Virus record (IMG/VR): IMGVR_UViG_3300021517_000007
Coordinates: 1 to 48,745 of that record
DNA: 48,745 nt
Direction: 5' to 3' (one strand)
Source of the DNA: a virus
A model generated the notes under the pieces. It searched no databases. It was not told the origin of the DNA and saw only the letters and a program-made list of their open reading frames with translations. Below, piece after piece: positions 1,382 to 48,421 of the stretch (position 1 is the stretch's first letter; each line of letters begins with the position of its first letter). The position numbers and the translations under genes are program-made.

Positions 1382-2011
1382 TTGATGCCGCACGCACACG
1401 ATTATAAGATTCTTTTTGAAAAATACCGTTGCGATGTTGTGCTGGGGCAAGAAAATACGGATCGGGACCCGGCAAGAAATGTTCCGGATGGTTGCCGATA
1501 CTTCCGTCCTGCGCCGGCCCGTAGCAACGTGCTCTATTGGGACCCGCGCAGGATTAATGCTATTTATAATGGTTACTTTAGACTTTCATCGCCAACGTTT
1601 TACAGTGAGCGTTGGCTGATCTGGCAGCATTTTTTGAAGGCGAACCGACATGCTCGAATCGGGGCGGTCCATTTGCCTGCTTTTTATAACAGAAAACCAC
1701 GCAATCGGATTGAATACGATAAACAGGAACTGAAAGTCGCTCGATGGTTCGAAGGCAATTCTGATCGGATCTTAGGCGGAGATTTTAACGGGAAAATCGG
1801 CGCGCCCCGTCTGCGCCATCTGTCGCCTTTGGGTCGCTGGTCCAAACCCGTTCCTTCCGGCCCAAAGGGCCAATCGATTGACTACGTTGGAGCTGTTAAA
1901 ACGGGGCGATGGTTTCCAATTCAAACCCAGACGCATAAACCCCGAAACGCCGACCATCGGGCCGTAATTGTGACTTTTCTTTGGCGACCAGCAAGGAGTG
2001 ACAATGGCTGA
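1382..2011 (+). CDS. Endonuclease/exonuclease/phosphatase (EEP) family protein, 5' end unresolved
   Basis: DNase I-like EEP-fold protein, a metal-dependent phosphodiesterase. Visible motifs are GQEN (metal-binding Glu), GGDFNGK (catalytic Asp/Asn), IDYV and a late ADHRAV (catalytic Asp-His). The first in-frame start codons are TTG 1382 and ATG 1385, yet the typical first core strand (IVATFNSAHR) is encoded upstream at 1352-1381 in the same open frame, and no ATG, GTG or TTG lies between TGA 1298 and 1382. The gene is thus either entered by -1 frameshift from LysM, started at a rare codon, or affected by an indel. Its role beside the lysis genes is unknown; host or competitor DNA is a possible substrate. 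Confidence 0.75.
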   Translation: MMPHAHDYKILFEKYRCDVVLGQENTDRDPARNVPDGCRYFRPAPARSNVLYWDPRRINAIYNGYFRLSSPTFYSERWLIWQHFLKANRHARIGAVHLPAFYNRKPRNRIEYDKQELKVARWFEGNSDRILGGDFNGKIGAPRLRHLSPLGRWSKPVPSGPKGQSIDYVGAVKTGRWFPIQTQTHKPRNADHRAVIVTFLWRPARSDNG

Positions 2012-2408
2012 TTCTGATATTCTGGCTCACTACGGCATCAAAGGTATGAAGTGGGGCGTTCGTCGAACTCGTGCCCAAATCGACTCCGATTCACCTGATG
2101 TAGTTGCGGTTAAAGCTACAACAGACAAAATTCGTCGTAATCGTGGGAGTACCGACCCGCTCTCAAACAAAGAATTGGAAGCGTTTAATCGTCGTCTCCA
2201 GCTAGAACGAACTTATAATGAGCTTGTTGGGAGGGCAGCTGATCGTAGTGCTTCCCGGGGAAGTCGATTTAAAAAAGAGGGGCAAAAATTTGTGCGTGAG
2301 ATCACACTCGACTCAGGGAAGCAAATTCTTAAGGGTGTTGTCACTGCGCAGGGAACAAAAGCTCTCAACGCGCAGGTAGAAGCGGCGTTGCAGAAAAAAA
2401 AGGGTTAG
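2004..2408 (+). CDS. Small basic HYG-motif protein (virion-associated?)
   Basis: A 134-aa basic, mostly helical protein. Residues 7-21 carry LAHYGIKGMKWGVRR, a motif common in head-region proteins of many phages; its function is not established as far as I know. The rest is Arg/Lys/Gln-rich and ends in a poly-Lys tail. AAGGAG lies just upstream of ATG 2004. It overlaps the end of the EEP gene and precedes the large terminase by 10 nt. The same motif appears twice in the 4867-5739 protein and in variant form in the RNA-polymerase-like protein at 38753, so it may be an assembly or packaging tag (inference). Confidence 0.7.
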   Translation: MADSDILAHYGIKGMKWGVRRTRAQIDSDSPDVVAVKATTDKIRRNRGSTDPLSNKELEAFNRRLQLERTYNELVGRAADRSASRGSRFKKEGQKFVREITLDSGKQILKGVVTAQGTKALNAQVEAALQKKKG

Positions 2409-4164: not shown

Positions 4165-4898
4165 CTGTTCGTGCTGGTAGTTCGAGTGTGACCGCAATGT
4201 ACGCGGGAACTTCTCCTCTTCTAAAGGCTTATGTGGGGACTAATCTTATTTATGAGAGCGGCGAAGAGCCGGAGCCTCCTACCGAGCCTATCGTTGTAGG
4301 CTCGTCTGCGTCTGCCACAAACTTTTTAACATCTTATACCCCCGATCTTCCTTCCGGTCTGCAGGATGGAGACTGGTTGGTGTGCGGGATGTCAGTATCT
4401 GATTCTTCGGGTGGTGTGACCGTAACGTCCGACCATTCGGATTGGACTGAGGATAATTTGCTTTCAAACCAGGGGACCACCCAAAGAGCGCTTTATGTAG
4501 CAACATATTTTGACGGCCTTGAGATGCCGTCTTGGTCTCTTTCTGCTAGTCGAAAATGTAGCCACGTTTGCGTGGCTGTGCGTAACCTGACGTCGTTTGT
4601 TCGATCTACCCAAAACCAGCCAGATACGAACACGGTAGCGCCCGCCCCAGCGGTCACGGCCGACGGCGAAGGGCTGTTGGTTAGACTTTGGGTTCGCAAA
4701 GACAATAAGTCGACGTCCGTTACTCTGCCAGCCGGTCACACCTTAATAAATCAGGCTCTTGCCGCGTCGTCTGGATCGAGCGCCCATGCGGTTGCCGCGC
4801 AGGCGCCTATTTCCTCTGCCGGAACAATTCCCGCTGCTAGTGTCACCTGGTCGGCTTCGTCAGGTAATGGCACGGGATGGTCTATTGCTATTGCGTAA
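4161..4898 (+). CDS. Putative virion surface protein, lectin-like
   Basis: A 245-aa Ser/Thr/Ala/Gly-rich protein. The first 32 residues form a compact beta segment (AYVGTNLIYE) resembling N-terminal anchors of phage head fibres or minor structural proteins. After an acidic Pro linker (EEPEPPTEP), residues 45-245 look like an all-beta jelly-roll of the carbohydrate-binding type, with alternating hydrophobic strands and aromatics. It sits between terminase and portal and overlaps the terminase stop, so it should be co-expressed with head genes. Decoration or host-surface binding is an inference; no catalytic motif is visible. Confidence 0.6.
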   Translation: MTVRAGSSSVTAMYAGTSPLLKAYVGTNLIYESGEEPEPPTEPIVVGSSASATNFLTSYTPDLPSGLQDGDWLVCGMSVSDSSGGVTVTSDHSDWTEDNLLSNQGTTQRALYVATYFDGLEMPSWSLSASRKCSHVCVAVRNLTSFVRSTQNQPDTNTVAPAPAVTADGEGLLVRLWVRKDNKSTSVTLPAGHTLINQALAASSGSSAHAVAAQAPISSAGTIPAASVTWSASSGNGTGWSIAIA

Positions 4899-5739
4899 GG
4901 AGGAAAGTTGGTGGACACTACCCCCCTGGATCAGATATTCGCCGTCTGATTACACTCTAGAGCAATGGTATGAGGCGTGTTTGATTCGTCCGGCTCGGAA
5001 TGAATTGCGCTCCAAAGCCCAATGCAAGCTGCCAGTGAAGACGCCCAGCGGCGTGCTGAATAAGAACGCAATATTTGCGGCTGCGGCTGCACTTGCAGGA
5101 GCTCGTGCGCCTTTGCAGGCGACGAAAGACGAGAAAACAAAAGCGGCGCGAACGCTTGTGAAGCTTTATGAGCAGATGGTTCAGCCTGTACCTGAATCCG
5201 TGCGGAGTCTGTCGGATAGCTCATTGGCTCATTACGGCGTTAAAGGAATGGCCAGGGGCGAAAGTTTAACAGAAATCTCCAATCGAAAATTTAGGTATGA
5301 ACCTCTGTTTACCTTGACGAAAGGACTTGGCATGGATTCTGAACCGTCGGCAAATGAGGCCCAACGTTTTTCAGAAGAGCTCGCGCATTACGGGGTCAAA
5401 GGAATGCGCTGGGGCGTGAGAAAGGATCGAGCGTCATCTAGCGGCCCATCCGGCCCGACTCGTGCGCAAAGGAGACAGGCTCGGGACGCCGAAATTTTGG
5501 CTGCCCGGAAAACAGTCCAAGCGTATCAAGTTCGGTCTCTTCGGAACGAATTGAATTTTTATAAATCGCTAGTTACTGGCGGGAGAAAAGAGGCCTTCCG
5601 CATTTTGCGTCGTGACGCCAAGGAATTTGCTAATTCGCCCGAACTCAAAATTGCTCAGAGACGTACAACAGGCGAAAAATGGCTTCTAGGGGCGGGGGCC
5701 GCGCTGTTTGTGGTTGGTGCAACTCGGCCCAGACGGTAA
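4867..5739 (+). CDS. Head-region protein with two HYG motifs, start uncertain
   Basis: The long frame ends at 5739. A segment near the N-terminus (QCKLPVKTPSGVLNKNAIFA and the helix after it) resembles the DUF6582-like module of phage head proteins. Two copies of the HYG motif follow: LAHYGVKGMARGE (5224-5262) and LAHYGVKGMRWGVRK (5386-5430). The C-terminus is basic and ends in a hydrophobic segment (WLLGAGAALFVVGA), possibly membrane-seeking. ATG 4867 is the nearest ATG but overlaps the upstream gene. An ideal AAGGAGG (4897-4903) instead points to GTG 4911 in another frame, which would need a +1 shift, perhaps at the C6 run 4921-4926. TTG 4981 is a third option. The role is unknown; portal and scaffold genes follow. 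Confidence 0.65.
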   Translation: MARDGLLLLRKEESWWTLPPWIRYSPSDYTLEQWYEACLIRPARNELRSKAQCKLPVKTPSGVLNKNAIFAAAAALAGARAPLQATKDEKTKAARTLVKLYEQMVQPVPESVRSLSDSSLAHYGVKGMARGESLTEISNRKFRYEPLFTLTKGLGMDSEPSANEAQRFSEELAHYGVKGMRWGVRKDRASSSGPSGPTRAQRRQARDAEILAARKTVQAYQVRSLRNELNFYKSLVTGGRKEAFRILRRDAKEFANSPELKIAQRRTTGEKWLLGAGAALFVVGATRPRR

Positions 5740-19531: not shown

Positions 19532-19735
19532 GTGGAAATGTATCTAGTAATTCTAGTGCTTCTCGGTCTGAATCTGTTATATTTGTATTATCATCGGCGC
19601 AAAACAGACGGTGTTATTTTGATCACTGAACATGATGGTAAAAAGTTGTTCAGTTTGGAGCTTAATGTCGATCCGTTAGACATGGAGCATAAGAAACGCG
19701 TTATATTTTCGGTAGAGCGGTCTGACCGCGATTGA
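19532..19735 (+). CDS. Small membrane-anchored protein
   Basis: A 67-aa protein starting at GTG 19532 behind AGGAG. Residues 3-20 (MYLVILVLLGLNLLYLYY) form a single membrane helix, followed by a basic stop (HRRK) and a soluble beta-like tail ending SVERSDRD. It is the last gene of the tail operon and its stop lies just downstream of the P1 upstream box. Function is unknown. Confidence 0.7.
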   Translation: MEMYLVILVLLGLNLLYLYYHRRKTDGVILITEHDGKKLFSLELNVDPLDMEHKKRVIFSVERSDRD

Positions 19736-19762
19736 TACACGTCATATAATGACACCCTCTAC
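19726..19762 (+). promoter_or_regulatory. Phage promoter P1
   Basis: CCGCG at 19726-19730, a 14-nt spacer, then TATAAT 19745-19750 followed by GACACCCTCTAC. It matches the recurring TCGCG-N14-TATAATGAGACC consensus with three changes. It overlaps the end of the preceding small gene and drives the gene starting at 19776. No -35 hexamer is seen at the usual distance. Confidence 0.7.
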
Positions 19763-20180: not shown

Positions 20181-20217
20181 TCGCGGAAATAACACGTAGT
20201 ATAATGAGACCCCCTAC
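20181..20217 (+). promoter_or_regulatory. Phage promoter P2
   Basis: TCGCG at 20181-20185, 14-nt spacer, TATAAT 20200-20205, then GAGACCCCCTAC. It drives the 39-aa ORF at 20235. The spacer differs from the P3/P6 version (TTGCATGC is replaced), which helps define the invariant positions. Confidence 0.8.
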
Positions 20218-20400: not shown

Positions 20401-20437
20401 TCGCGAAAATTGCATGCCATATAATGAGACCCACTAC
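20401..20437 (+). promoter_or_regulatory. Phage promoter P3
   Basis: TCGCG 20401-20405, spacer containing TTGCATGC, TATAAT 20420-20425 and GAGACCCACTAC. It drives the 47-aa membrane protein at 20452. Confidence 0.85.
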
Positions 20438-20659: not shown

Positions 20660-20696
20660 TCGCGAGAATCGCATGCTGTATAATGAGACCCCCTAC
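20660..20696 (+). promoter_or_regulatory. Phage promoter P4
   Basis: TCGCG, spacer AGAATCGCATGCTG, TATAAT at 20679-20684, then GAGACCCCCTAC. It drives the 60-aa protein at 20713. Confidence 0.85.
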
Positions 20697-22443: not shown

Positions 22444-22474
22444 TCGCGAAAATTACATCCTCTATAGTGAGACC
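22444..22474 (+). promoter_or_regulatory. Phage promoter P5
   Basis: TCGCG 22444-22448, 14-nt spacer (AAAATTACATCCTC), TATAGT 22463-22468, GAGACC. The -10 has one change (TATAGT) and CCCCCTCAC comes slightly later. It drives the 75-aa protein at 22501. Confidence 0.75.
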
Positions 22475-23785: not shown

Positions 23786-23822
23786 TCGCGAAAATTGCAT
23801 GCCGTATAATGAGACCCCCTAC
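23786..23822 (+). promoter_or_regulatory. Phage promoter P6
   Basis: TCGCG 23786-23790, spacer AAAATTGCATGCCG, TATAAT 23805-23810, GAGACCCCCTAC. This is essentially the consensus sequence. It drives the 87-aa membrane protein at 23840. Confidence 0.88.
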
Positions 23823-30100: not shown

Positions 30101-30832
30101 TCTCATGCGTTGAAGATCGTCATCAATATTGTCTATGGCCTAACCAGTGCCAAATTTGATACGGTGTTCCGCGATCCTCGAAATAAAGACAACATCGTCG
30201 CGAAGCGTGGCGCTTTGTTCATGATTGATCTCAAGCATGCCATCCAGGAACAAGGCTTCCCGGTAGTGCATATTAAGACGGACTCAGTCAAGATCCCTAA
30301 TGCCACGCCCGATATTATTCAGTTTGTAACCGAATTTGGCGAGCGATACGGGTACACGTTCGACCACGAGAAGACATACGAGAAATTCTGTCTTGTCAAC
30401 GACGCCGTTTACATCGCCCGAGAAGGCGACAAATGGGACGCTGTCGGCGCTCAATTCCAACACCCATATGTCTATCGAACTTTGTTCACGCATGACGAGA
30501 TCCACCTCCAAGACTTGTGCGAAGTCCGTTCGGTAACCAATGGCGCCATCTACATCGATTTCGGCGACGAGCGTATGCACTTTGTCGGACGGTCTGGAAG
30601 CTTCGTTCCGGTCCGCGAAGGCACAGGCGGCGGTACGCTTTACCGAGTCAAAGACGGGCGCAAGTACGCGCTGTCTGGGACAAAGGGATATTTCTGGAAG
30701 GAGGCCGCCGTCGTTAAGGAATTGGGTCCATCGGAATGGCAGAACATCGATAAATCGTTCTATCAAGCTCTGGTCGAAGACGCCGTAGACACCATTGAAC
30801 GTTTCGGCTCGTTCGAAGCGTTCGTTAGCTAA
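27131..30832 (+). CDS. SF3 helicase - primase-polymerase - family B DNA polymerase fusion
   Basis: A 1233-aa protein starting at GTG 27131 behind GAAGGAGGG. Residues about 150-330: SF3 (D5-like) helicase, Walker A GSAKTGKST at 174-182, a GIQHDGDLSRIEDN block near 220 and GTNNPVKISDSRSG near 268. Residues about 480-600: archaeo-eukaryotic-type primase motifs VIDFD (about 494) and SGKGLHLHY (about 527). Residues 685 to the end: family B polymerase, with ExoI FDVEVYPN (D690/E692), ExoII GFNNRRYDN, ExoIII YCANDVV, motif A DVASMHPTSI (D927), motif B KIVINIVYG (K995) and motif C KTDSVKI, where Lys1049 replaces the first Asp of DTDS and Asp1051 is kept. It carries unwinding, priming and synthesis on one chain. 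Confidence 0.9.
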   Translation: MDFFKAKVRKNGKKTEVYPEFLSRKSRDLMTRGGKFYAIWDEEAGLWSTDIYRVVELVDAELRRVAAEFDQPYIRWMEEHSTGSHDAFLRYVRNNENNYHQLNQFLAFSNTKVKKTDYISHRLDYALEDGAHDAWDELVGKLYSEEELAKIEWAIGSVVAGDSVDIQKFIVLYGSAKTGKSTVLHIIERLFSGYTNVFDAKALGSNGTSFALEVFKENPLVGIQHDGDLSRIEDNTRLNSLVSHENMVINEKYKSQYNVRINTFLFMGTNNPVKISDSRSGLLRRLIDVQPTGNLHTFDHYQVLMSRIEFELGAIASHCLRVYQSMGKNYYDNYRPTKMMYSTNVFYNFVEAYLPELKAPDGITLKRAYALYKEFCTESNNKPMQMQIFRNEMMNYYENFVERTMVDGQEVYSLFKDFKLEKLTGVAPSSPKSFSINLAQRRSLLDDILADMPAQYATETGKPSKRWGLVKTTLTDLDTSLVHYVKIPKNHIVIDFDLRDESGEKSLDKNLEAASAWPPTYTELSMSGKGLHLHYIYNGDIKELDNEYSPGIEIKTLLGDSSLRRRLSRCNDHEVAQITSGLPMKERKMIDVKQIKSERGLREMIARNLRKEIHPNTKSSIDFIKKVLDDAYSSDLSYDVTDLRSSIVAFANNSTNRPLECLRLVREMKFKSEDRTVSISGEGDALVYFDVEVYPNLFVLCWKFEGDHPVVRMINPKPDDIEPLLAQKLVGFNNRRYDNHILYAAFLGYDNERLYRLSQALIVDKNRNATFGEAYGLSYADVYDYSSKKQGLKKFQIELGIVHKELDHPWDEPVPEERWIEVADYCANDVVATEKVAESRAQDFVARQILASISGLSVNDTTQKHTARIVFEGDPSPQGSFVYTDLSELFPGYIFEGGKSSYRGEDPSEGGYVYAEPGMYENVAVLDVASMHPTSIRLLNLFGPYTKNFNDLLDARLAIKKGDYSAAAQMLDGKLASFISDADTQSAKDLSHALKIVINIVYGLTSAKFDTVFRDPRNKDNIVAKRGALFMIDLKHAIQEQGFPVVHIKTDSVKIPNATPDIIQFVTEFGERYGYTFDHEKTYEKFCLVNDAVYIAREGDKWDAVGAQFQHPYVYRTLFTHDEIHLQDLCEVRSVTNGAIYIDFGDERMHFVGRSGSFVPVREGTGGGTLYRVKDGRKYALSGTKGYFWKEAAVVKELGPSEWQNIDKSFYQALVEDAVDTIERFGSFEAFVS

Positions 30833-32665: not shown

Positions 32666-32696
32666 TCGCGAATTTTACATCGTCTATAATGAGACC
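32666..32696 (+). promoter_or_regulatory. Phage promoter P7
   Basis: TCGCG 32666-32670, 14-nt spacer (AATTTTACATCGTC), TATAAT 32685-32690, GAGACC. Unlike the other promoters the CCCCCTAC extension is replaced by a perfect hairpin. Confidence 0.8.
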
Positions 32697-34481: not shown

Positions 34482-34919
34482 ATGGTCAACACTTTTCTGC
34501 CTGAGATTGGTTATTATGAATCACTCACACGTCTAGACCAAAAACGCCTTGGAAAGCAGCGGGTCGAGACGATGCAGATCCTCAAGGCTTTGCGTGGGGA
34601 GACTAAGGGGTGGCGCACGCATCCCGCAGCTCGCATGTGGCAAGGCTACGAGGGATCGCTTTGCGCATATGGGCTGATCTCCTGCCGAGTCTGGCGAACC
34701 CGTGGATACGCAGACTCTCTACTGCCATATTTCACACAGATGCTAAAGGAATACCCGGATCGCCAGGTTCCGTGGTGGCACGGGATCAAAGAATTTCATC
34801 GCTCGCATCAGAGCAATCTCATCCGGAAGGATCCAGGTCGATACAGTCTGATGTGGCCGGGGGTGCCAGCGGATCTACCATATTATTGGCCGGTCTCGCG
34901 GGAATCACATGTTGTATAA
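34482..34919 (+). CDS. MSMEG_6728-like protein, pyrimidine-dimer DNA glycosylase-related
   Basis: A 145-aa protein starting at ATG 34482 behind GAGGGAG. The pattern NTFLPEIGYYESLTRLDQKR, LGKQRVETMQILKALRG, GWRTHPAARMWQGYEGSL and RGYADS is that of the MSMEG_6728 family, related to T4 endonuclease V type repair glycosylases. A role in repair of UV-damaged phage DNA is likely from family knowledge. The last 8 codons overlap promoter P8, so coding sequence and promoter share DNA. Confidence 0.75.
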   Translation: MVNTFLPEIGYYESLTRLDQKRLGKQRVETMQILKALRGETKGWRTHPAARMWQGYEGSLCAYGLISCRVWRTRGYADSLLPYFTQMLKEYPDRQVPWWHGIKEFHRSHQSNLIRKDPGRYSLMWPGVPADLPYYWPVSRESHVV

Positions 34920-34932
34920 TGAGACCCCCTAC
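34896..34932 (+). promoter_or_regulatory. Phage promoter P8
   Basis: TCGCG 34896-34900, 14-nt spacer (GGAATCACATGTTG), TATAAT 34915-34920, GAGACCCCCTAC. It overlaps the 3' end of the upstream gene and is followed at once by a terminator-like hairpin. Confidence 0.8.
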
Positions 34933-34949: not shown

Positions 34950-34986
34950 TCCGCCGGCCTTGCGAGCATATAATCAGACCCCCTAC
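34950..34986 (+). promoter_or_regulatory. Phage promoter P9 (divergent variant)
   Basis: TATAAT 34969-34974 followed by CAGACCCCCTAC, with TTGC upstream. The TCGCG box is degenerate (TCCGC). It drives the HNH gene at 35001 and the helicase after it. Confidence 0.65.
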
Positions 34987-36449: not shown

Positions 36450-36522
36450 GGGCCTCTAGCTCAATTGGCAGAGTAGCGGACTTTTAATCCGTAAGGTGTG
36501 GGTTCGAGTCCCACGGGGCCCA
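36450..36522 (+). tRNA. tRNA-Lys (anticodon TTT)
   Basis: A 73-nt cloverleaf. Acceptor GGGCCTC (36450-36456) pairs with GGGGCCC (36515-36521), discriminator A 36522. D arm GCTC...GAGT, anticodon arm GCGGA-CTTTTAA-TCCGT giving TTT, T arm GTGGGTTCGAGTCCCAC. CCA is not encoded. It reads AAA/AAG. Promoter P10 begins 2 nt after it. Confidence 0.95.
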
Positions 36523-36523
36523 C

Positions 36524-36560
36524 GCGCGAAAATTGCAGGGCATATAATGAGACCCCCTAC
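36524..36560 (+). promoter_or_regulatory. Phage promoter P10
   Basis: GCGCG 36524-36528, spacer AAAATTGCAGGGCA, TATAAT 36543-36548, GAGACCCCCTAC. It drives the 89-aa protein at 36578. Confidence 0.85.
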
Positions 36561-37909: not shown

Positions 37910-38206
37910 ATGGCTGTTCGTGAGTCGCGCTTTCAACGCCACGTCGTTGACGCGCTCAAGCAAATGTTTCCTGGTTGCGTTGTGATTAAGAACGATCCGC
38001 AAAACCGTCAGGGGTTGCCTGATCTTTTGGTTTTGTTTGGGTCACGATGGGCGATGCTTGAGGTTAAGTCATCCTTAAATTCTCGTCGTCGTCCTAATCA
38101 AGCATACTACGTCCAGATGCTCGGCCAGATGTCGTTTGCGGCTTTTATCTCTCCCGAGAATGAAGAAGAGGTTTTGAATGATCTTCAATATGCATTCACG
38201 CATTAG
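37910..38206 (+). CDS. VRR-NUC endonuclease
   Basis: A 98-aa nuclease behind GGGAGG. VRR-NUC pattern: ESRFQRHVVDALKQMFPG, GLPDLLVLFGSRWAMLEVKS (catalytic PD...EVK of the PD-(D/E)XK fold) and a final YYVQMLGQM helix. Stand-alone phage VRR-NUC proteins are thought to act as structure-specific or Holliday-junction nucleases. Its end overlaps the next nuclease gene by 29 nt. Confidence 0.85.
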   Translation: MAVRESRFQRHVVDALKQMFPGCVVIKNDPQNRQGLPDLLVLFGSRWAMLEVKSSLNSRRRPNQAYYVQMLGQMSFAAFISPENEEEVLNDLQYAFTH

Positions 38207-38738
38207 GGATCAGCATGCGTTTTTAAGTCCGAGCCGGTACCACTGGTTAAACTACTCGGACGAGAAACTTGACCGGGCGTTCTTGGCTTCGCAAGCTGCG
38301 AAACGTGGAACAGAGTTGCATAGTTTTGCGCATCAAGCGATCCGTCTCGGCGTTAGACTTCCGGATACTTCCGGTTCATTGAACAGTTACGTGAACGACG
38401 GAATCGGCTACCGCATGACGCCTGAGCAACCACTATATTACTCGGATAATGCGTTTGGGCACGCGGACTGTATTTCTTTTCGACGTAATGTCCTTCGTGT
38501 CCATGATTTGAAGACTGGGACGGTTCCCGCCTCGTATCATCAACTCGAGATTTACGTGGGCCTCTTCTGCCTTGAATATAAGATGAACCCCGTAGACTTT
38601 GAAACTGAGCTGCGGATCTACCAGAACAATGAGGTGCGTGTACACCATCCTGATGCTGACGTTATCTTTCACGTCATGGATCGGATTATCACTTTTGACA
38701 AGCGCATCGAATCCATTAAGGAAGAAGCCCGATCCTGA
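38178..38738 (+). CDS. RecB/Cas4-like PD-(D/E)XK nuclease
   Basis: A 186-aa protein. GAAGAGG lies 6 nt upstream of ATG 38178. Motifs: AAKRGTELHSFAHQAIRLG (RGT..H helix), FGHADCISFRRNVLRVHDLK (GxxD ... DLKTG) and HQLEIYVGLFCLEY (Q...Y). These match phage exonucleases of the Cas4/RecB class. A role in recombination or DNA end processing with the VRR-NUC partner is likely. No Fe-S cysteine set is visible. Confidence 0.8.
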   Translation: MIFNMHSRIRDQHAFLSPSRYHWLNYSDEKLDRAFLASQAAKRGTELHSFAHQAIRLGVRLPDTSGSLNSYVNDGIGYRMTPEQPLYYSDNAFGHADCISFRRNVLRVHDLKTGTVPASYHQLEIYVGLFCLEYKMNPVDFETELRIYQNNEVRVHHPDADVIFHVMDRIITFDKRIESIKEEARS

Positions 38739-38752
38739 GAGGAGATAAGATC

Positions 38753-41434
38753 TTGTTCGTTATTACGGAAGATGAGACCAATTCCCTTCAGCATTACGGC
38801 ATTCTTCGTCGTTCTGGTCGTTATCCTTGGGGCTCCGGCGGCAACGTCGCAAATCGTAGTAAATCTTTTTTGGATTACGTATCGTCAATGCAGAAGCAAG
38901 GGATGACAGAAGCTCAGGTTGCGGAAGGCGTTGGTCTCACGACTAAAGAACTTCGGGCGCTGAAGTCGATTGCTAAGGCGGAAGCAAGAGCGGCTGATAT
39001 TACGTTTGCGCAGCGCCTCAAAGCAAAAGGCGCCGCGAATACGGTCATCGGGGAGCGGTTGGGTATCAATGAGAGTTCTGTTAGAGAGCTGTTAAAAGCC
39101 GGCCAGCTTGATAAGACTCAGCAGTTGCGCAACATTGCAGACGTGTTGAAGTCAAACGTTGACGAAAAAGGTATGATCGATATTGGTACCGGCGTCGAGC
39201 GTCAGTTGGGTATCAGTAAGGAAAAGCTTGCGGCGGCCGTTGCAATGCTTTCCGAGGAAGGTTATGCAACTCGGTCGTTCAAGATTGAGCAGGTTGGAAC
39301 TGGCTTGTTGACCGAGTATAAAGTACTGGTTCCTGAGTCGGTAACGCAGAAGGAAGCGTGGGCAAACCGTGCGAATCTACGTCAGATCAATGAGTTCTCT
39401 GATGATGGAGGTCGCACAAACCTTGGCCTTCTTCCTCCATTGTCGGTGGATTCAAAGCGAATTGGAATTAATTACGCAGAAGATGGCGGCGCCGATGCCG
39501 ATGGTGTGATCTTTGTGCGCCCGGGCGTGGCTGATTTGTCACTTGGTGGAGGTAATTACGCGCAGGTCCGGGTTGCTGTTGATGGGACGCACTTTCTCAA
39601 AGGGATGGCTGTCTACAAAGATGATCTGCCTGCCGGCGTCGACTTGGTTTTTAATACTAATAAGTCGAGTACGGGCAATAAGCTTGACGCTATGAAGCCT
39701 ATGAAGACCGTCGGCAAGACGGGTGAGATTGACATGGACAACCCATTCGGTTCATCCATTAATCGCCAAATCATCTCGCTGGGTGCGGATGGCAAGCCAA
39801 AAGTTACATCTGCTATGAACCTCATCTATGAAGAAGGAACCTGGGACACTTGGAACCGACAGTTGTCATCTCAGTTTCTTTCTAAGCAGGATGTAAAGCT
39901 TGCCAGGCAGCAGCTTGATTTTCTCTACAATAAAAACGAAACTGCGCTCGATGAGATTATGTCGTTGACAAATCCTGTCATCAAGCGCGACCTGTTGCGG
40001 AAGTTCGGTGATGAGGCCGACGCCGCCGCCGTACATCTTGCTGCGGCCGCCATGCCAAGGCAGTCTACTAAAGTTCTTATTCCGTCGAATTCGATGAAGC
40101 CTACTGAGGTGTATGCTCCTACGTATCGTAATGGCGAACGTGTGGTGCTAGTCCGGCACCCTCACGGTGGGACGTTTGAGATTCCTGAGTTGGTAGTTAA
40201 CAATCGGGACCCGGCAACAAAGAAACTGTTGGGTAACGCCCCAGACGCGATTGGTATCAACGCTGAGGTAGCTAAGCGTTTGTCTGGTGCAGACTTTGAT
40301 GGGGATACGGTCATTGTCATTCCGAACGATCGAGGGCAAGTCAAAACCTCTCCGCCTCTGAAGGCGTTGCAGAACTTCGATCCCATCAGAGAGTATCCCG
40401 CCTATGAGGGTATGCCGACGATGCGCAGTGATCGTAAACAGATGGAGATGGGTTCCATCTCAAATCTGATTACTGACATGACTATCATGGGCGCAACACA
40501 AACGGAAATTGCTAGAGCTGTTAAACATTCCATGGTTGTTATCGATGCTGAGAAACACAATCTGAATTACAAACAATCGTATCTAGACAACGGAATCCCT
40601 GCTCTAAAAGAGAAGTATCTGGGGCGATCCGATAAAGGCGCATCCACGTTGATCTCTCTTGCAGGTTCTCGCGTTGATGTTCCCGAACGCCAGCCGCGGC
40701 GTATGTCTAAAGGTGGCCCGATTGATCCCGCCACAGGACGTAAAGTGTATGAGTACACTGGCCGTACCTACGTCGACAAGACTGGTAAAGTCGTCTCGAA
40801 GACACAACGAAGCGAGAAGCTTGCGGAAACCGACGACGCATTTACGCTGTCTGCGGGGACGCGAATTGAGACTGAGTATGCGACTTACTCCAATCGGATG
40901 AAAGCGCTTGCGAATCGGGCTAGGAAAGAAAGTCTTGCGGTCAAAAACATTCCCTATTCTCCCTCAGCTAAGAAGGTGTATGAGAAAGAAGTTAAGTCGC
41001 TGGATGCCAAGCTTAACCTGGCTGAGAAGAACGCCCCTCGAGAACGCCAGGCTCAAATTGTAGCCAATGCTATCCGGGCTGCAAAACGGCGCGACAATCC
41101 CGACATGACTCGGGAGGAGAAGAAGAAGATCGATGGTATGGCGTTGGTCGAGGCGAGAGCTAGGACTGGTGCAGGGAAAGCTCGTATCGACATCTCGCCT
41201 AAGGAATGGGAAGCGATTCAAGCAGGCGCTATCACAACTAGTAAGCTCGAATCAATTCTAAGGAACTCCGATGCAAAGAAGGTAAAGGAATTGGCCACTC
41301 CACGTACATCTCTTTTGATGACTTCTACGAAGACCTCTCAGGCTAAGGCTTTGCTTAAGCAGGGCTACACTCAGGCAGAAGTGGCTGACGCTATTGGGGT
41401 AAGTCTCACCACTCTTAAGACTAGTCTCGCTTAG
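38753..41434 (+). CDS. RNA polymerase-like protein with DFDGD catalytic motif and HYG tag
   Basis: An 893-aa protein, TTG 38753 behind GAGAGGAG. Residues 13-29 carry LQHYGILRRSGRYPWGS, a variant of the HYG motif. Helix-turn-helix segments: EAQVAEGVGLTTKELRALK (about 53-71), NTVIGERLGINESSVRELL (about 97-115) and a C-terminal YTQAEVADAIGVSLTTLKTS. The core keeps LSGADFDGDTVIVIPN, with Asp514, 516 and 518 equivalent to the metal-binding DxDGD of beta-prime and YonO-like polymerases. An upstream block (THFLKGMAVYKDD, Lys283) may be the second psi-barrel with its active-site lysines. I infer a single-chain DNA-dependent RNA polymerase, possibly virion-packaged. Confidence 0.75.
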   Translation: MFVITEDETNSLQHYGILRRSGRYPWGSGGNVANRSKSFLDYVSSMQKQGMTEAQVAEGVGLTTKELRALKSIAKAEARAADITFAQRLKAKGAANTVIGERLGINESSVRELLKAGQLDKTQQLRNIADVLKSNVDEKGMIDIGTGVERQLGISKEKLAAAVAMLSEEGYATRSFKIEQVGTGLLTEYKVLVPESVTQKEAWANRANLRQINEFSDDGGRTNLGLLPPLSVDSKRIGINYAEDGGADADGVIFVRPGVADLSLGGGNYAQVRVAVDGTHFLKGMAVYKDDLPAGVDLVFNTNKSSTGNKLDAMKPMKTVGKTGEIDMDNPFGSSINRQIISLGADGKPKVTSAMNLIYEEGTWDTWNRQLSSQFLSKQDVKLARQQLDFLYNKNETALDEIMSLTNPVIKRDLLRKFGDEADAAAVHLAAAAMPRQSTKVLIPSNSMKPTEVYAPTYRNGERVVLVRHPHGGTFEIPELVVNNRDPATKKLLGNAPDAIGINAEVAKRLSGADFDGDTVIVIPNDRGQVKTSPPLKALQNFDPIREYPAYEGMPTMRSDRKQMEMGSISNLITDMTIMGATQTEIARAVKHSMVVIDAEKHNLNYKQSYLDNGIPALKEKYLGRSDKGASTLISLAGSRVDVPERQPRRMSKGGPIDPATGRKVYEYTGRTYVDKTGKVVSKTQRSEKLAETDDAFTLSAGTRIETEYATYSNRMKALANRARKESLAVKNIPYSPSAKKVYEKEVKSLDAKLNLAEKNAPRERQAQIVANAIRAAKRRDNPDMTREEKKKIDGMALVEARARTGAGKARIDISPKEWEAIQAGAITTSKLESILRNSDAKKVKELATPRTSLLMTSTKTSQAKALLKQGYTQAEVADAIGVSLTTLKTSLA

Positions 41435-41445
41435 GAGAACGAGTG

Positions 41446-41706
41446 ATGAGTGATAACACTTACGCGATGTTAACTACTACTGACAATCCGTGGAATCCTT
41501 TCACCCACTTCAAAGAGTGGGAAGCTTTTGATCGTCGATCGGGGTACCACACTCTTAGCCTGCTGGCTCGAGTCGCGAGAGTTTCCTTCGAACTTTCAGA
41601 AGAACAACAGAAAGAAGCAGTACAGCAAGCTATTGACGAGATTGTGACCTACAACCTTTTAGGTAAATACCGAAAAGTTTACTCCTCGTCGCAAACAACG
41701 AATTAA
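41446..41706 (+). CDS. Conserved small phage protein
   Basis: An 86-aa protein behind TAGGAG. The pattern AMLTTTDNPWNPFTHFKEWE, RRSGYHTLSLLARVARVSFE, LSEEQQKEAVQQAIDEIVTY and GKYRKV is a conserved family in many phages of Gram-positive hosts, usually close to the RNA-polymerase-like and terminase genes. Mostly helical. Function is not known. Confidence 0.75.
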   Translation: MSDNTYAMLTTTDNPWNPFTHFKEWEAFDRRSGYHTLSLLARVARVSFELSEEQQKEAVQQAIDEIVTYNLLGKYRKVYSSSQTTN

Positions 41707-43767: not shown

Positions 43768-44160
43768 ATGACTGACAGTATCTTGACCAGTACAAAGAAG
43801 ATTCTTGGTCTTGCCGAGGAGTACACCGTCTTCGACTTAGACATTATGACGCACATTAATTCGGCGTTGATGTACGTAAGTCAGTTGGGGATCGGCCCTG
43901 CAGAGGGGTTCTCTGTCGAAGGGCCCGAAACGACTTGGGAAGAGCTTCTGGGCAATTCTCAGATGCTCAATCCGGTTAAGTCTTACGTCTATCTTCGCGT
44001 GCGTCTACTTTTCGATCCTCCGAATACGTCGTTCCTCATCAATGCGCTTGAGGACCAGCTCCGAGAGATGGAATGGCGCCTAAACGTTTATCGCGAGGGC
44101 AATGCTTGGAGTCCACCCCTCCCGTTTGACACTGTGCTGATCGACGGCGGCAGCCCCTAG
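43768..44160 (+). CDS. Gp6-like head-tail connector / conserved structural protein
   Basis: A 130-aa helical protein behind AAGGAGG. The pattern DSILTSTKKILGLAEEYTVF, MTHINSALMYVSQLGIG, PVKSYVYLRVRLLFDPPNTS and REMEWRLNVYREG fits a conserved phage family with gp6-like connector character, often encoded next to collagen-like fibres. Position here, directly before the tail fibre gene, is consistent. Connector function is family-based inference. Confidence 0.65.
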   Translation: MTDSILTSTKKILGLAEEYTVFDLDIMTHINSALMYVSQLGIGPAEGFSVEGPETTWEELLGNSQMLNPVKSYVYLRVRLLFDPPNTSFLINALEDQLREMEWRLNVYREGNAWSPPLPFDTVLIDGGSP

Positions 44161-44169
44161 GAGAAGCTC

Positions 44170-45729
44170 ATGACAATTCAACCTTTCACTATTCGTCTTC
44201 GCCGGGGCACCGATGCACAGTGGACTCTGGCTAACCCAATTCTCAGTTCCGGTGAACCTGCATATGTCACAGATCTTAATCAGTTCAAGATCGGTGATGG
44301 GGTTACTCCTTGGACTGAGCTCCCTTATACTACAGGGATTCCTGGTCCTCCCGGTGAAGACGGACCGGTTGGCCCGCCAGGACCTGTTGAAGAAGCACCC
44401 CTGGATGGCGAACAATACGCTCGGCGAGATGGGACCTGGACTGCCGTAGTCGGTGGGGGAGGGGCTGGAATTACCGATGCCCCCGCCGATGGCACCATCT
44501 ATGCGCGGTATAACAATTTCTGGCTGGATATTGATGAGCGATATTTGTCCGTTGCCGACGGCGCGGTTTTTAATACTGCTCTGGCCGGGAAAGAGAACGT
44601 CGGCGTGGCGTCGACTTTGCTGTCGCAGCACACCGCTGCCACCAATCCTCATACGCAATATTTGAGAGACGCCCCAAGTAATGGATCGCAATACGTGCGG
44701 CAAAACGGGACTTGGGCTGTAACAGTCGCCCCAGACGACGCAGTCGAGGAGGCTCCTAATGATGGCCAACAGTATGTAAGACAGAACGGGGCCTGGGCTA
44801 TTCTGGTTGGCGGCAGCGGTATCACTGAGGGCACCGCTAACGCTCGATATTTGTGGCAACAGCGCCCCAAGACTGACGCGGATTATGCCATTACCGACCC
44901 CACGAACATGCAGGTTGCACAGTTCAATATTGTGAACGATGCGTCGCCGGCTGCGAACTGGCCTGATCGGTTGCATTTCAAGTACGATGGTGTCCGCACT
45001 GGTGGATTTAATGAGTTCGGCGAAGGCAGGTTCGATCCGGCCAAAGATAGCACTGTGGCTTTGCGTGTGCATGGGTTCAAGAGTGGGTCGACACCAGCTT
45101 CTCTGGGTGACTTCTTTGAGGTCCGCGAGGCCCGTAATGTTGGGGACATTATTATGGGTGTGGGCCTAAACGGAACGACGCTGCGCCGCAAGATGACAAT
45201 CATCAATTCGAGTAAAGATGTAGGCGGTTTGGTGGTTGAGCGGACGGCGACGTCCACCACCATTACCGACGCTGACATTGTGGACATTCGGTACGGGGGT
45301 AAACGAGCGACGTGGGTCAACGAGAAGGGGAACCTTAGGACGTCGAATGACGCCGCTCCTGGTGAAGTGGCTATGAAGATCATTGCTCGGGATCAAGCCG
45401 AGGGCGGCTCCGGCAACATGCTCGAAGTTTTGAATCTCGCTGGCGCTGTTCAAATGCGGATTGGGGTTCTTGGGCGAGTTAACTTCAACAAAGGCATTCG
45501 TACCGTGGGCAGCACTTTGGAGATTCGAAATTCTACAGAGGCTGACCAGACGGTTGTCGAGCAGTTAACTGGCGGGGATTTGCAGCTTACTCCAGCTAAC
45601 GACGTGAATCTCGTTGGTGGCCGCATTAAAGAAGATGGCCAGACGGTTTGGCGTCAATGGGTAGGGTCCCAGGCCGCTTATGATGCAATTGGCACTAAAG
45701 ATCCAAACACATTGTATGCAATCGTCTAG
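44170..45729 (+). CDS. Tail fibre with Mtd-like N-terminus and collagen-like linker
   Basis: A 519-aa protein behind TAGGAG. Residues 8-54 match the major tropism determinant N-terminal domain (IRLRRGTDAQWTLANPIL, SSGEPAYVTDLNQFKIGDGV). A short Gly-X-Y region (PGPPGEDGPVGPPGPV) follows, then four repeats of an APxDGxQYxRxxGxW type (44395-44810), a beta-rich body and a C-terminal YDAIGTKDPNTLYAIV end. It probably recognises the host surface. The 46754 protein shares both the N-terminal domain and the C-terminal end. No diversity-generating retroelement is nearby. Confidence 0.85.
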   Translation: MTIQPFTIRLRRGTDAQWTLANPILSSGEPAYVTDLNQFKIGDGVTPWTELPYTTGIPGPPGEDGPVGPPGPVEEAPLDGEQYARRDGTWTAVVGGGGAGITDAPADGTIYARYNNFWLDIDERYLSVADGAVFNTALAGKENVGVASTLLSQHTAATNPHTQYLRDAPSNGSQYVRQNGTWAVTVAPDDAVEEAPNDGQQYVRQNGAWAILVGGSGITEGTANARYLWQQRPKTDADYAITDPTNMQVAQFNIVNDASPAANWPDRLHFKYDGVRTGGFNEFGEGRFDPAKDSTVALRVHGFKSGSTPASLGDFFEVREARNVGDIIMGVGLNGTTLRRKMTIINSSKDVGGLVVERTATSTTITDADIVDIRYGGKRATWVNEKGNLRTSNDAAPGEVAMKIIARDQAEGGSGNMLEVLNLAGAVQMRIGVLGRVNFNKGIRTVGSTLEIRNSTEADQTVVEQLTGGDLQLTPANDVNLVGGRIKEDGQTVWRQWVGSQAAYDAIGTKDPNTLYAIV

Positions 45730-45749
45730 CCCCGTCAAAGGAGATCGTT

Positions 45750-46733
45750 GTGGTTGAAGTCCCGACCTCGGCTGAGTTTGAAGAGTATAAGGCCAGCGCA
45801 AAGGCGCAGCAAGAGAATTTTGAAAAGCAGTTTTTGGACTTCAAAATGGAAGTACTTGCCCGTCTAGACGAGCCTGACGAAGACGGCGGTTCCGATCCCG
45901 GTGACGGCGAGCCTTCCGAAGGGGTGATCCCGGGTCATCAGCCGAGCAAGATTTATCTCGGATGGGCCCACCCTCTGCCTACTTACGAAGATGAAGTTGC
46001 TCGTCTAGGCTTGCCTGGTGTGCAGCGTTATTATTGTAAGCCGACCGAGCTTGAAAAAGAACGGTCAGTGGCGCAGACGGCGTGGGCACGGGGCTCGTTG
46101 CCGTGGGGATCGTTTTCGGGCCTTAATTTTACTGACGCTGATTTTGAGCGTCGGGTTTTGGAGTACCAGACATGGTCTCAACCGGCATTGATCACGTGGG
46201 CGCATGAGCCCGTGGGCGACATGACGTATGATCACTATACACGTACCTGGCGGCGTCTTCTGGATGTTGCGGATCGGCTTGGTGGCACTGGCCAAGTAAC
46301 GTTGTGCCCTATCATGAATGGATTTCCTTGGGGCGCGCATGACACGTGGACTGACACTGAGATTGCTGAATGGTTCCCCCAAGATTTGTTGGAGCGCTGG
46401 AAGCTTTTAGGAATGGACGTCTATCACGGCGGCACCCTTAGCGACCCCAAAGATGGGCCCGCAAACCGCGTGGGCCGAATTCTGAAGTGGGCAGAGCGGG
46501 CTCGGTACGCTGGTTTGTTTGGTTTCGGCGAAACTGGTACGCATACTGCTGACGAATGGGTTTCTACTTGGTCGGTTATCGTGGCTTCCAAACGATTTAT
46601 GACTGTGGCTTGGTTTAATTCGACGCGGAATAACCGTCCGGGCGTTAATTGGTATCTGGCTGATGGTGAACCACGGACGCGGGAATTTCTTAAGTCGCTG
46701 GCTTCTTCCGATTGTGCGTGGCTCTCCAAGTAG
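45750..46733 (+). CDS. TIM-barrel glycosidase-like tail protein
   Basis: A 327-aa protein from GTG 45750 (AAAGGAG upstream). Residues 1-55 are a coiled coil plus Asp/Gly/Pro linker. The rest resembles a (beta/alpha)8 glycoside hydrolase: IYLGWAHPLPTYEDEVAR, ALITWAHEPVGDMTYDHYTR (a candidate acid/base Glu in WAHEP), CPIMNGFPWG, and YAGLFGFGETGTHTADEW (candidate nucleophile Glu). The spacing is reminiscent of GH26-like mannanases, but the family cannot be settled by eye. It lies between two collagen-type fibres and probably cuts host-surface polysaccharide during adsorption. Confidence 0.6.
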   Translation: MVEVPTSAEFEEYKASAKAQQENFEKQFLDFKMEVLARLDEPDEDGGSDPGDGEPSEGVIPGHQPSKIYLGWAHPLPTYEDEVARLGLPGVQRYYCKPTELEKERSVAQTAWARGSLPWGSFSGLNFTDADFERRVLEYQTWSQPALITWAHEPVGDMTYDHYTRTWRRLLDVADRLGGTGQVTLCPIMNGFPWGAHDTWTDTEIAEWFPQDLLERWKLLGMDVYHGGTLSDPKDGPANRVGRILKWAERARYAGLFGFGETGTHTADEWVSTWSVIVASKRFMTVAWFNSTRNNRPGVNWYLADGEPRTREFLKSLASSDCAWLSK

Positions 46734-46753
46734 CTACGGGTAAGGAGCGTTTG

Positions 46754-47260
46754 ATGTATGTAATTCGAATTCGGCGAGGAACTGAAAGCGAATGGCTCAA
46801 CTCAAATCCTATCTTGCTAGACGGTGAGATCGGGTTCGTTACCGATCTTAGAGTTTTTTATATTGGGGATGGAATTACGCCCTTCTCAGAGCTCGGCGAA
46901 GCGTTGGCGACTGGTCCTCAGGGCATCCAAGGTCCTGTCGGTCCGCCTGGGCCTCGTGGAGAGGGCGTTACTATTGTAGGAGTTGTGCCATCGTTTGCAA
47001 ATTTGCCGGTTAGCGCTGATCTGAACGATTTGTACATTACCGAAGACACCAACAACGGTTATATTTGGGATGGTTCTGATTGGGTCAACATCGGGCCGAT
47101 GCAGGGGCCTCAAGGTGAGCAGGGGCCTCAAGGTGAGCAGGGGCCTCAAGGTGAGCAGGGGCCTCAAGGTGAGGCAGGCCAATGGTGGAGCGGGACCCTT
47201 GCCGAGTATGACGCGATTGTTACTAAAGATCCTGATACGCTTTATGTCGTTGTGGGGTGA
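46754..47260 (+). CDS. Short collagen-like fibre protein, Mtd-like N-terminus
   Basis: A 168-aa protein; ATG 46754 has TAAGGAG 7 nt upstream. Residues 2-48 repeat the tropism N-terminal domain of 44170 (VIRIRRGTESEWLNSNPIL, VFYIGDGITPFSEL). A Gly-X-Y linker (GPQGIQGPVGPPGPRGEG), a TIVGVVPSFANLPVSADLND carbohydrate/fibre module, and GPQGEQ repeats follow. The end EYDAIVTKDPDTLYVVVG matches the C-terminus of the 44170 fibre. It probably trimerises as an accessory fibre. Confidence 0.82.
   Translation: MYVIRIRRGTESEWLNSNPILLDGEIGFVTDLRVFYIGDGITPFSELGEALATGPQGIQGPVGPPGPRGEGVTIVGVVPSFANLPVSADLNDLYITEDTNNGYIWDGSDWVNIGPMQGPQGEQGPQGEQGPQGEQGPQGEAGQWWSGTLAEYDAIVTKDPDTLYVVVG
47102..47173 (+). repeat. 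Four perfect 18-bp tandem repeats (collagen-like)
   Basis: CAGGGGCCTCAAGGTGAG occurs four times head to tail, encoding GPQGEQ-type triplets in the 46754 gene. Perfect identity suggests recent expansion or slippage, so copy number may vary between isolates or assemblies. Confidence 0.97.
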
Positions 47261-47263
47261 CTC

Positions 47264-48421
47264 ATGCCTCTTCTCAATACTGCGGACGATGTCAAGCTCG
47301 GCGAGCAACAAATCTTATTCGTGGCGCTTGGGCAGGATCTAGTTTGGCCCCTCGCCGAAGGTGGGCAACCCAAGATTAGTTCGGTGTCTTCGGCGGGCAC
47401 ACTGTCTGTGTCTTGGGACGAAGTGGTTAACGCTGAGTTGTATGAGCTTCGTAGAAATGGTGAGCTTATCGCGACTCAAGTCGGCCGCATTTACAATGAT
47501 TCCGGGTTAGATTGGGGTGCGTCTTACTCATACCGGGTTACGCCGATCATATTTGGCGTCCCTGGGACTGAGTCGCCAGTAAGTATTAATGCGGTAATTC
47601 CCAAAGGGAAAGTTGGCGCGCTTTCAGCCTCTTCCAGAACGCTGACGAATGTGACCGTGTCTTGGGCCGTCGTTCCTGGCGCGACGCATTATGAAATTCG
47701 CCGGAACAACGTTGTTATTGGCACTCAGACCGGCACCAGCAAAGCTGTGTCGACTTCTGAAGACACATCTATCAATATTTATGTCCGACCGTTCCGAAAT
47801 GGGATTCTTGGGCTGAACAGTTCTATTTACACCTACTATTCGGGGCGGTCTGAGGAGCGCGATCAAGGTAGCCGACAGGACATGGTCTTTGAGCCGAGTA
47901 AAGTCGATTCTTGGCGTCCAGTTGATGGCTGGTCTTGGCTAGCAAACATCGCGGCACAGGGTTATTTCACAGCCGCCTACGGAAACTATAAGGGTGTTAT
48001 TTTCTATGGTAGTAACGGTGTCCGCGGAGCCTTACGCGATCGTCTCGGCACGAACGGTGTGGATCGTCAGTTAAAAGGATCTTGCACGAGCGCTGAGGTA
48101 TATTTGTTCAAGAAGGCGGGCGTTGGTACAAGTGGAACGGTAACAACGAATATCCATGTCTCGAATTCGGACGCCGGAGGACCAGAGCCTGGTGGACAGA
48201 ACTCCGTCTCCAGAACCTCCACGTCTGGTGGGAACGGTAAGTGGTACAACATCTCCGACGCTAATGGGCAACGCCTTGGCGATGGCTCTTTTTCCAGCTT
48301 GATGCTACGTAACGATGGTGCAGCCGATTACGCGCAGTTTACGGATGGTCGGCTCCGTTTGTCGTGGTCTTGGAACTATGTGGTACAAGCCGCCAAGGCT
48401 AATACTTGGGGGTTAGCATAA
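47264..48421 (+). CDS. Tail protein with two FN3 domains
   Basis: A 385-aa protein starting 3 nt after the previous stop. Residues about 33-115 and 122-190 are fibronectin type III domains (TLSVSWDEVVNAELYELRRN, SYSYRVTPI; NVTVSWAVVPGATHYEIRRN, INIYVRPFRNG). The C-terminal 190 residues are Gly/Ser/aromatic-rich and beta-like (GWSWLANIAAQGYFTAAYGN, GGNGKWYNISDANGQRLGDG), probably the receptor-binding part. Together with the neighbouring fibres it forms the adsorption apparatus. Confidence 0.82.
   Translation: MPLLNTADDVKLGEQQILFVALGQDLVWPLAEGGQPKISSVSSAGTLSVSWDEVVNAELYELRRNGELIATQVGRIYNDSGLDWGASYSYRVTPIIFGVPGTESPVSINAVIPKGKVGALSASSRTLTNVTVSWAVVPGATHYEIRRNNVVIGTQTGTSKAVSTSEDTSINIYVRPFRNGILGLNSSIYTYYSGRSEERDQGSRQDMVFEPSKVDSWRPVDGWSWLANIAAQGYFTAAYGNYKGVIFYGSNGVRGALRDRLGTNGVDRQLKGSCTSAEVYLFKKAGVGTSGTVTTNIHVSNSDAGGPEPGGQNSVSRTSTSGGNGKWYNISDANGQRLGDGSFSSLMLRNDGAADYAQFTDGRLRLSWSWNYVVQAAKANTWGLA

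Follow-up and report, generated by a model that had tools for sequence, protein, structure and literature searches.

The crAss-like phage phi14:2 packages a two-barrel RNA polymerase, gp66, into its virions. Two single-chain polymerases of the siphovirus P23-45 are described in PMC10770324, the non-virion gp64 and the virion polymerase gp96, which is fused to the tape measure; the same paper lists altogether 23 two-barrel families. YonO of SPbeta, a characterised phage enzyme of the superfamily, is DNA-dependent, and its promoter sequence was not determined in the study concerned (PMC5467207).

The stretch of viral DNA analysed here, called the window, is an IMG/VR virus record 48,745 nucleotides long and encodes a predicted polymerase of this known kind, represented by the packaged crAss-like gp66, the tape-measure-fused gp96 (PMC10770324) and YonO (PMC5467207). 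Its family, phrog_4291, may already be included as sequence among the 23 families. The N-terminal tag and the set of promoter-like elements that accompany it appear to have been undescribed so far (Table 1).

In the proposed way of working, the closest described system is phi14:2 gp66, a packaged two-barrel polymerase, but gp66 has 2166 residues and the structural match to it is weak (6vr4, E 0.017 and 0.06). We know of no tag common to gp66 and the window polymerase. The sequence-only reading had pointed to the crAss-like phages as the known viral relatives; gp66 was rejected as the closest relative because of the weak fold match, the nearest solved structures being QDE-1 and the P23-45-type gp64. 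The P23-45 enzymes are also single-chain two-barrel polymerases of siphoviruses. However, gp96 is a tape-measure fusion, whereas the window polymerase stands by itself, carrying a short tag of the head type and helix-turn-helix (HTH) ends, and the window yielded a single polymerase where P23-45 has two. YonO shares the colinear motifs RxPH, DxDGD and SNxIT in a marginal profile alignment (hhalign, E 0.063), but its consensus has no such N-terminal tag. QDE-1 and the RDR enzymes, eukaryotic RNA-interference polymerases, share the DxDGD triad and the predicted two-barrel fold of the core with the phage enzyme, but the identity is about 12-15%, and the phage enzyme differs from them in its HTH ends, its N-terminal tag and the promoter-like elements of its genome.

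Table 1. Positions of the features of the window, with the evidence on which each was placed
Feature	Position	Strand	Basis
Single-chain two-barrel RNA polymerase (predicted), phrog_4291, 893 aa	38753..41434	+	profile, tblastn, AlphaFold2, Foldseek
N-terminal tag, residues 12-30, LQHYGILRRSGRYPWGSGG	38786..38842	+	alignment, model, genome survey
Helical N-terminal region that includes an HTH, residues 39-134	38867..39154	+	profiles, model
First barrel region (predicted), beta-like, residues 236-360, invariant K283, G284, K304	39458..39832	+	alignment, models, Foldseek
Second barrel region (predicted), beta-prime-like, residues 438-526	40064..40330	+	alignment, models, Foldseek
Catalytic DFDGD, residues 514-518	40292..40306	+	translation, alignment
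Two post-catalytic-barrel helices, residues 559-623, bridge-helix/trigger-loop-like	40427..40621	+	alignment, model
C-terminal HTH, residues 858-892	41324..41428	+	Pfam; HTH and sigma region 4 profiles in most members
Nuclease (phrog_93) and exonuclease (phrog_3953) genes	37910..38738	+	conserved neighbours immediately 5' of polymerase
Small ORF after polymerase	41443..41706	+	counterparts after polymerase: 1706 orf75's neighbour orf76, Scap1 gp56, Mudcat gp95
Tagged protein just 5' of terminase, HYGIKGMKWG at 2028-2057	1998..2408	+	motif search
Tagged protein between terminase and portal, HYGVKGMRWG at 5386-5415	4759..5739	+	motif search
Promoter-like element, copy 1	19726..19752	+	pattern scan
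Promoter-like element, copy 2	20181..20207	+	pattern scan
Promoter-like element, copy 3	20401..20427	+	pattern scan
Promoter-like element, copy 4	20660..20686	+	pattern scan
Promoter-like element, copy 5	22444..22470	+	pattern scan
Promoter-like element, copy 6	23786..23812	+	pattern scan
Promoter-like element, copy 7	32666..32692	+	pattern scan
Promoter-like element, copy 8	34896..34922	+	pattern scan
Promoter-like element, copy 9, weaker (TATAATCAGACC at 34969)	34950..34976	+	intergenic repeats
Promoter-like element, copy 10, last before polymerase-containing gene run	36524..36550	+	pattern scan

Predicted fold and relatives of the polymerase

The polymerase ORF begins with TTG and matched phrog_4291, named 'RNA-dependent RNA polymerase' in PHROGs, over its full length in the profile search (1280 bits). 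In a tblastn search of the phage collection, homologues were found in 250 phage records, with 80% or more of the query aligned in all but one (249), and the genera represented were Arthrobacter (95), Gordonia (55), Streptomyces (54), Lactococcus (13) and others. Because of the full-length match and the 250 records, the reality of the ORF as a conserved protein is, judged by sequence comparison, far beyond chance. A frequent database label of the homologues is 'helix-turn-helix DNA-binding domain protein', and one record (FP_oengus) has 'putative RNA polymerase'. Homologues were also present within two bacterial contigs, possibly as prophages (L082 10001-12748, a Clostridiales MAG, and L083 10001-12778, Butyrivibrio).

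The catalytic segment of the ORF reads GADFDGDTVIVIPN (GADFDGD, residues 512-518). Residue conservation was assessed from an alignment of 67 sequences, in which the DxDGD triad proposed earlier (Asp514/516/518) was invariant, as were F515, G517, K283, G284 and K304; the upstream lysine-bearing block of the sequence-only reading thus recurs in all the aligned relatives as K283 and G284. The DxDGD lies in the predicted second barrel, where the two-barrel superfamily has it. In the helices following the catalytic barrel, the motifs MGxxSNLITDM and HSMVVIDAEKH were invariant or nearly so, and the SNLIT portion aligned with YonO.

The AlphaFold2 model of the whole chain had a pLDDT of 78.9, and that of the core (residues 226-722) 88.5, with a pTM of 0.77. 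Two strand-rich (beta-barrel) regions were predicted, the first including the invariant K283 and K304. When the models were compared with the PDB using Foldseek, QDE-1 ranked first both with the whole chain and with the core, where the alignment extended over about 530 columns at E 1e-9 with probability 1.00; next came the P23-45-type gp64/gp62 (E 1e-6 to 3e-8) and plant RDR2. A predicted structure lacking paired barrels, which would have refuted the sequence-only reading, was not obtained; the TM-scores of the core against QDE-1 were moderate (0.44-0.49), so that the predicted pairing rests on the Foldseek alignment and the secondary structure.

The Pfam scan was made with 41 alignment rows. 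The RdRP family, to which QDE-1 and RDR belong, was matched by 36 of the 41 members (best E 7e-5) and the sigma region 4 profile by 40. The HTH segments suggested near both ends were recovered as Pfam HTH_7, at its cut-off, at residues 862-889, and as phrog_664, 'DNA binding protein', on two stretches of the N-terminal part (whole-protein E 2.4e-10, best stretch residues 43-128). The protein's own sequence had no match in the PDB, and its profile matched nothing there but HTH chains, designed repeats and other unrelated chains. Because of the Foldseek matches to QDE-1, gp64 and RDR2, the Pfam RdRP matches and the motifs colinear with YonO, the assignment to the two-barrel RNA polymerases is near certain at the level of profiles and predicted structure.

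The RefSeq and PHROGs name implies an RNA-dependent RNA polymerase that makes complementary RNA in the host. The Pfam RdRP match agrees with this name, as does the nearest solved structure, that of QDE-1, of which there are structures with RNA templates and with DNA templates. However, the phage is a DNA phage with no apparent RNA stage, the HTH segments at both ends are of the DNA-binding type, promoter-like elements are present on the DNA and YonO is DNA-dependent (PMC5467207), and we consider this explanation very improbable. No description of an actinophage RNA-dependent RNA polymerase was found in the open-access literature.

The polymerase gene is situated outside the head block, and downstream of it the window has the small conserved ORF, then an HNH gene, then tail-fibre genes. 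The genomes of annotated relatives have it as their final large gene, after which comes, in the circular sense, the lysis, terminase and head block; the position just before the late block, noted from the window alone, is thus also that of the relatives. The tail-fibre gene cluster (Mtd_N and Phage_tail_C domains; 43768-48421) is located between the HNH and endolysin genes, distant from the tape-measure gene. The window also encodes a 1233-aa phrog_4210 protein annotated as DNA polymerase (27131-30832). GP55 of Lactococcus phage 1706, at the matching place, was described as a four-in-one replicase (PMC12205980), and the 1233-aa protein is therefore probably a further member of the GP55-type replicases.

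N-terminal tag and probable virion packaging

The N-terminus of the polymerase carries a conserved tag with the consensus LxHYG..R.SGRYPWGSG. Six of its residues were invariant (H14, G16, S21, G22, R23 and Y24), and its conservation exceeded that of most of the enzyme, while AlphaFold2 predicted the segment to be disordered. The sequence-only reading had described an HYG motif shared with head-region proteins. The HYG itself (residues 14-16) is indeed common to the two head-region ORFs of Table 1, but the continuation is not, and since GRYPWGSG and not GMKWG follows the HYG, the polymerase tag is a variant of the head-protein tag. The ORF between the terminase and portal genes also has a degenerate second tag, HYGVKGMARG, at 5230.

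In relatives, the 25-aa tag of the head-block proteins corresponds to Pfam PF23847 (DUF7211; HYGxxGMKWG), the function of which is unknown in Pfam. The polymerase had no match to PF23847 in the Pfam search. Its tag resembles the first half of the domain but has GRYPWGSG in place of GMKWG; the first 12 residues of the tag were within the top 1.5% of background HxG sites when scored against the head-tag profile.

The survey of the tags covered six frames of 17 genome sets, altogether 807 kb. HYGxxGMKWG was found 30 times, always on the terminase strand and in 29 cases at -2.1 to +3.2 kb relative to where the terminase gene starts; two of the 17 sets had no such tag. The polymerase-type tag was present on the polymerase in all 16 genome sets covering its gene. 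One further match to its pattern, in a 74-aa frame (G013 at 274), was rejected as chance, the other 16 being within polymerase ORFs. The phage collection has 245 records with the head tag, and their genus counts nearly match those of the polymerase when the two are compared as counts.

The DUF7211 carriers of relatives include a GNAT acetyltransferase, amidase-fold and LigT-like proteins and annotated membrane proteins. In Arthrobacter phage Paella (L281 9746-16159), eight consecutive genes between the terminase and portal genes start with the tag, several of them annotated as membrane proteins. Tagged proteins with GNAT and/or glutamine-deamidase (papain-fold) domains were found in Gordonia phage Secretariat (L280 9829-11379) and Arthrobacter phage Sporto (L282 5302-6363), and these are possible injected proteins. 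The open-access literature contained no description of the tag, nor of DUF7211 as a packaging signal.

Lactococcus phage 1706 has a full-length homologue of the polymerase, orf75 (37% identical), which its depositors labelled 'structural protein' (EU081845). The same label was given to orf7, which bears two HxGxxGMKWG motifs. Outside the late cluster of 1706 the label is found on orf62, orf71 and orf75, which suggests that it may denote detection in virions. The paper behind the label is Garneau et al. 2008 (Virology 373:298). RefSeq NC_010576 replaced 'structural protein' of orf75 by 'RNA-dependent RNA polymerase', hiding the evidence of virion presence.

Because of the orf75 label and the tag common to head-block proteins, it is probable, as read from sequence and annotation, that the short end tag brings the window polymerase into the virus particle. 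Alternatively, as with YonO or P23-45 gp64, the two-barrel polymerase could be synthesised in the infected cell and act as a non-virion enzyme, its tag serving otherwise, for example in portal or membrane binding. The nearest phage structures are of the non-virion gp64/gp62 type, and the polymerase gene is downstream of the same series of promoter-like elements and could therefore be expressed early or in mid infection. Against this are the orf75 label in the original record and a tag that is common to head-block proteins and conserved above most of the enzyme, and we regard a non-virion enzyme as unlikely.

Promoter-like element

The intergenic repeats of the window yielded the element TCGC-N7-RCA-N5-TATARTGA(GACC), present in ten copies, all on the + strand and spanning from 19.7 to 36.6 kb, with no copies in the head/tail block. 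Nine of the copies deviate from the pattern at two positions or fewer, where dinucleotide-shuffled sequence would be expected to give 0.04. A tRNA-Lys (ttt) gene (36450-36523) is directly upstream of the last copy, and the tRNA was the only match of the Rfam search.

All 16 surveyed genomes had the element, with 124 copies on the coding strand, one on the opposite strand and one in mononucleotide-shuffled sequence. Of the coding-strand copies, 122 were located 17 kb or more beyond the terminase start, outside the head/tail block, and 104 were followed by a ribosome-binding site and a start codon, in most cases some 30 nt past the TATA. The geometry is rigid, the TCGC box starting 19 bp and the RCA box 8 bp upstream of the TATA. 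The same spacing was found in Mudcat and BitterVaud1, and variants of the element in 1706 and P078; the layout spans actinophages, a Bifidobacterium phage and, as variants, Lactococcus phages.

When IMG/VR was scanned with a strict form of the element and nothing else, the polymerase was encoded, among the matches listed, in 33 of the 34 contigs that reached 40 kb or more. Also among the matches listed were 12 contigs longer than 30 kb without a polymerase match, ten of which, including the sole exception above 40 kb, carry the same terminase; most of the polymerase-less contigs are therefore probably fragments of the same lineage.

The TATAAT of the elements is a perfect sigma-70 -10 box that a host sigma factor could use, and repeated intergenic motifs of unknown function are reported from other actinophages (PMC7302621). 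The elements might instead be read as promoters by the RNA polymerase of the host, or serve a phage regulator as operators, the phage enzyme transcribing something else. The sigma-70 promoter reading was rejected because there is no -35 box at the right spacing (17 bp). The conservation also extends past the TATAAT, the TCGC and RCA boxes are rigidly placed, and the layout persists across actinophages, the Bifidobacterium phage and, with variants, Lactococcus phages; as a whole, the host-promoter or operator explanation seems rather unlikely. The polymerase probably starts early genes from promoters of its own.

The open-access literature gave no description of the promoters of phages with the phrog_4291 polymerase family, and none came from searches on actinophage intergenic promoters or two-barrel polymerases. 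The available parts of Arthrobacter, Rhodococcus and Microbacterium genome papers contained nothing on the phrog_4291 polymerase or the element.

Proposed mechanism and its meaning

We consider it reasonably likely that the ORF encodes a tagged, capsid-packaged polymerase that is ejected and transcribes early and middle genes. The product would be a single-chain, two-barrel, DNA-dependent RNA polymerase, sorted into the procapsid by its disordered N-terminal tag of a DUF7211-type variant and ejected together with the phage DNA. The terminal HTH modules would then help it to recognise TCGC-N7-RCA-N5-TATARTGA promoters, from which early and middle genes would be transcribed. The co-occurrence of polymerase, terminase, tag and element does not prove that they act jointly, because all four are inherited within one phage lineage. 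The location of the polymerase gene away from the head block, the moderate TM-scores, the TATAAT that a host sigma factor could use and the marginal profile match to YonO also count against the proposal.

A broader reading is put forward more tentatively, as quite possible though not quite probable. In this large siphophage lineage of Gram-positive hosts, DUF7211 and its GRYPWGSG form could be a general virion-cargo tag, packing the polymerase and also the tagged acetyltransferase, amidase-fold, phosphoesterase-like and membrane proteins of relatives. Infection would then be started by a built-in transcription system reading a compact promoter of its own, one that is retained among hosts differing widely in base composition.

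If the proposed mechanism is true, hundreds of sequenced phages, many of them from teaching programmes, hold an unrecognised self-sufficient early transcription system labelled 'HTH DNA-binding protein', and a compact orthogonal pair of polymerase and promoter would be gained. DUF7211 would receive a function as a virion-cargo tag, and with it a list of candidate injected proteins, and packaged two-barrel polymerases would become testable in cultivable laboratory phages.
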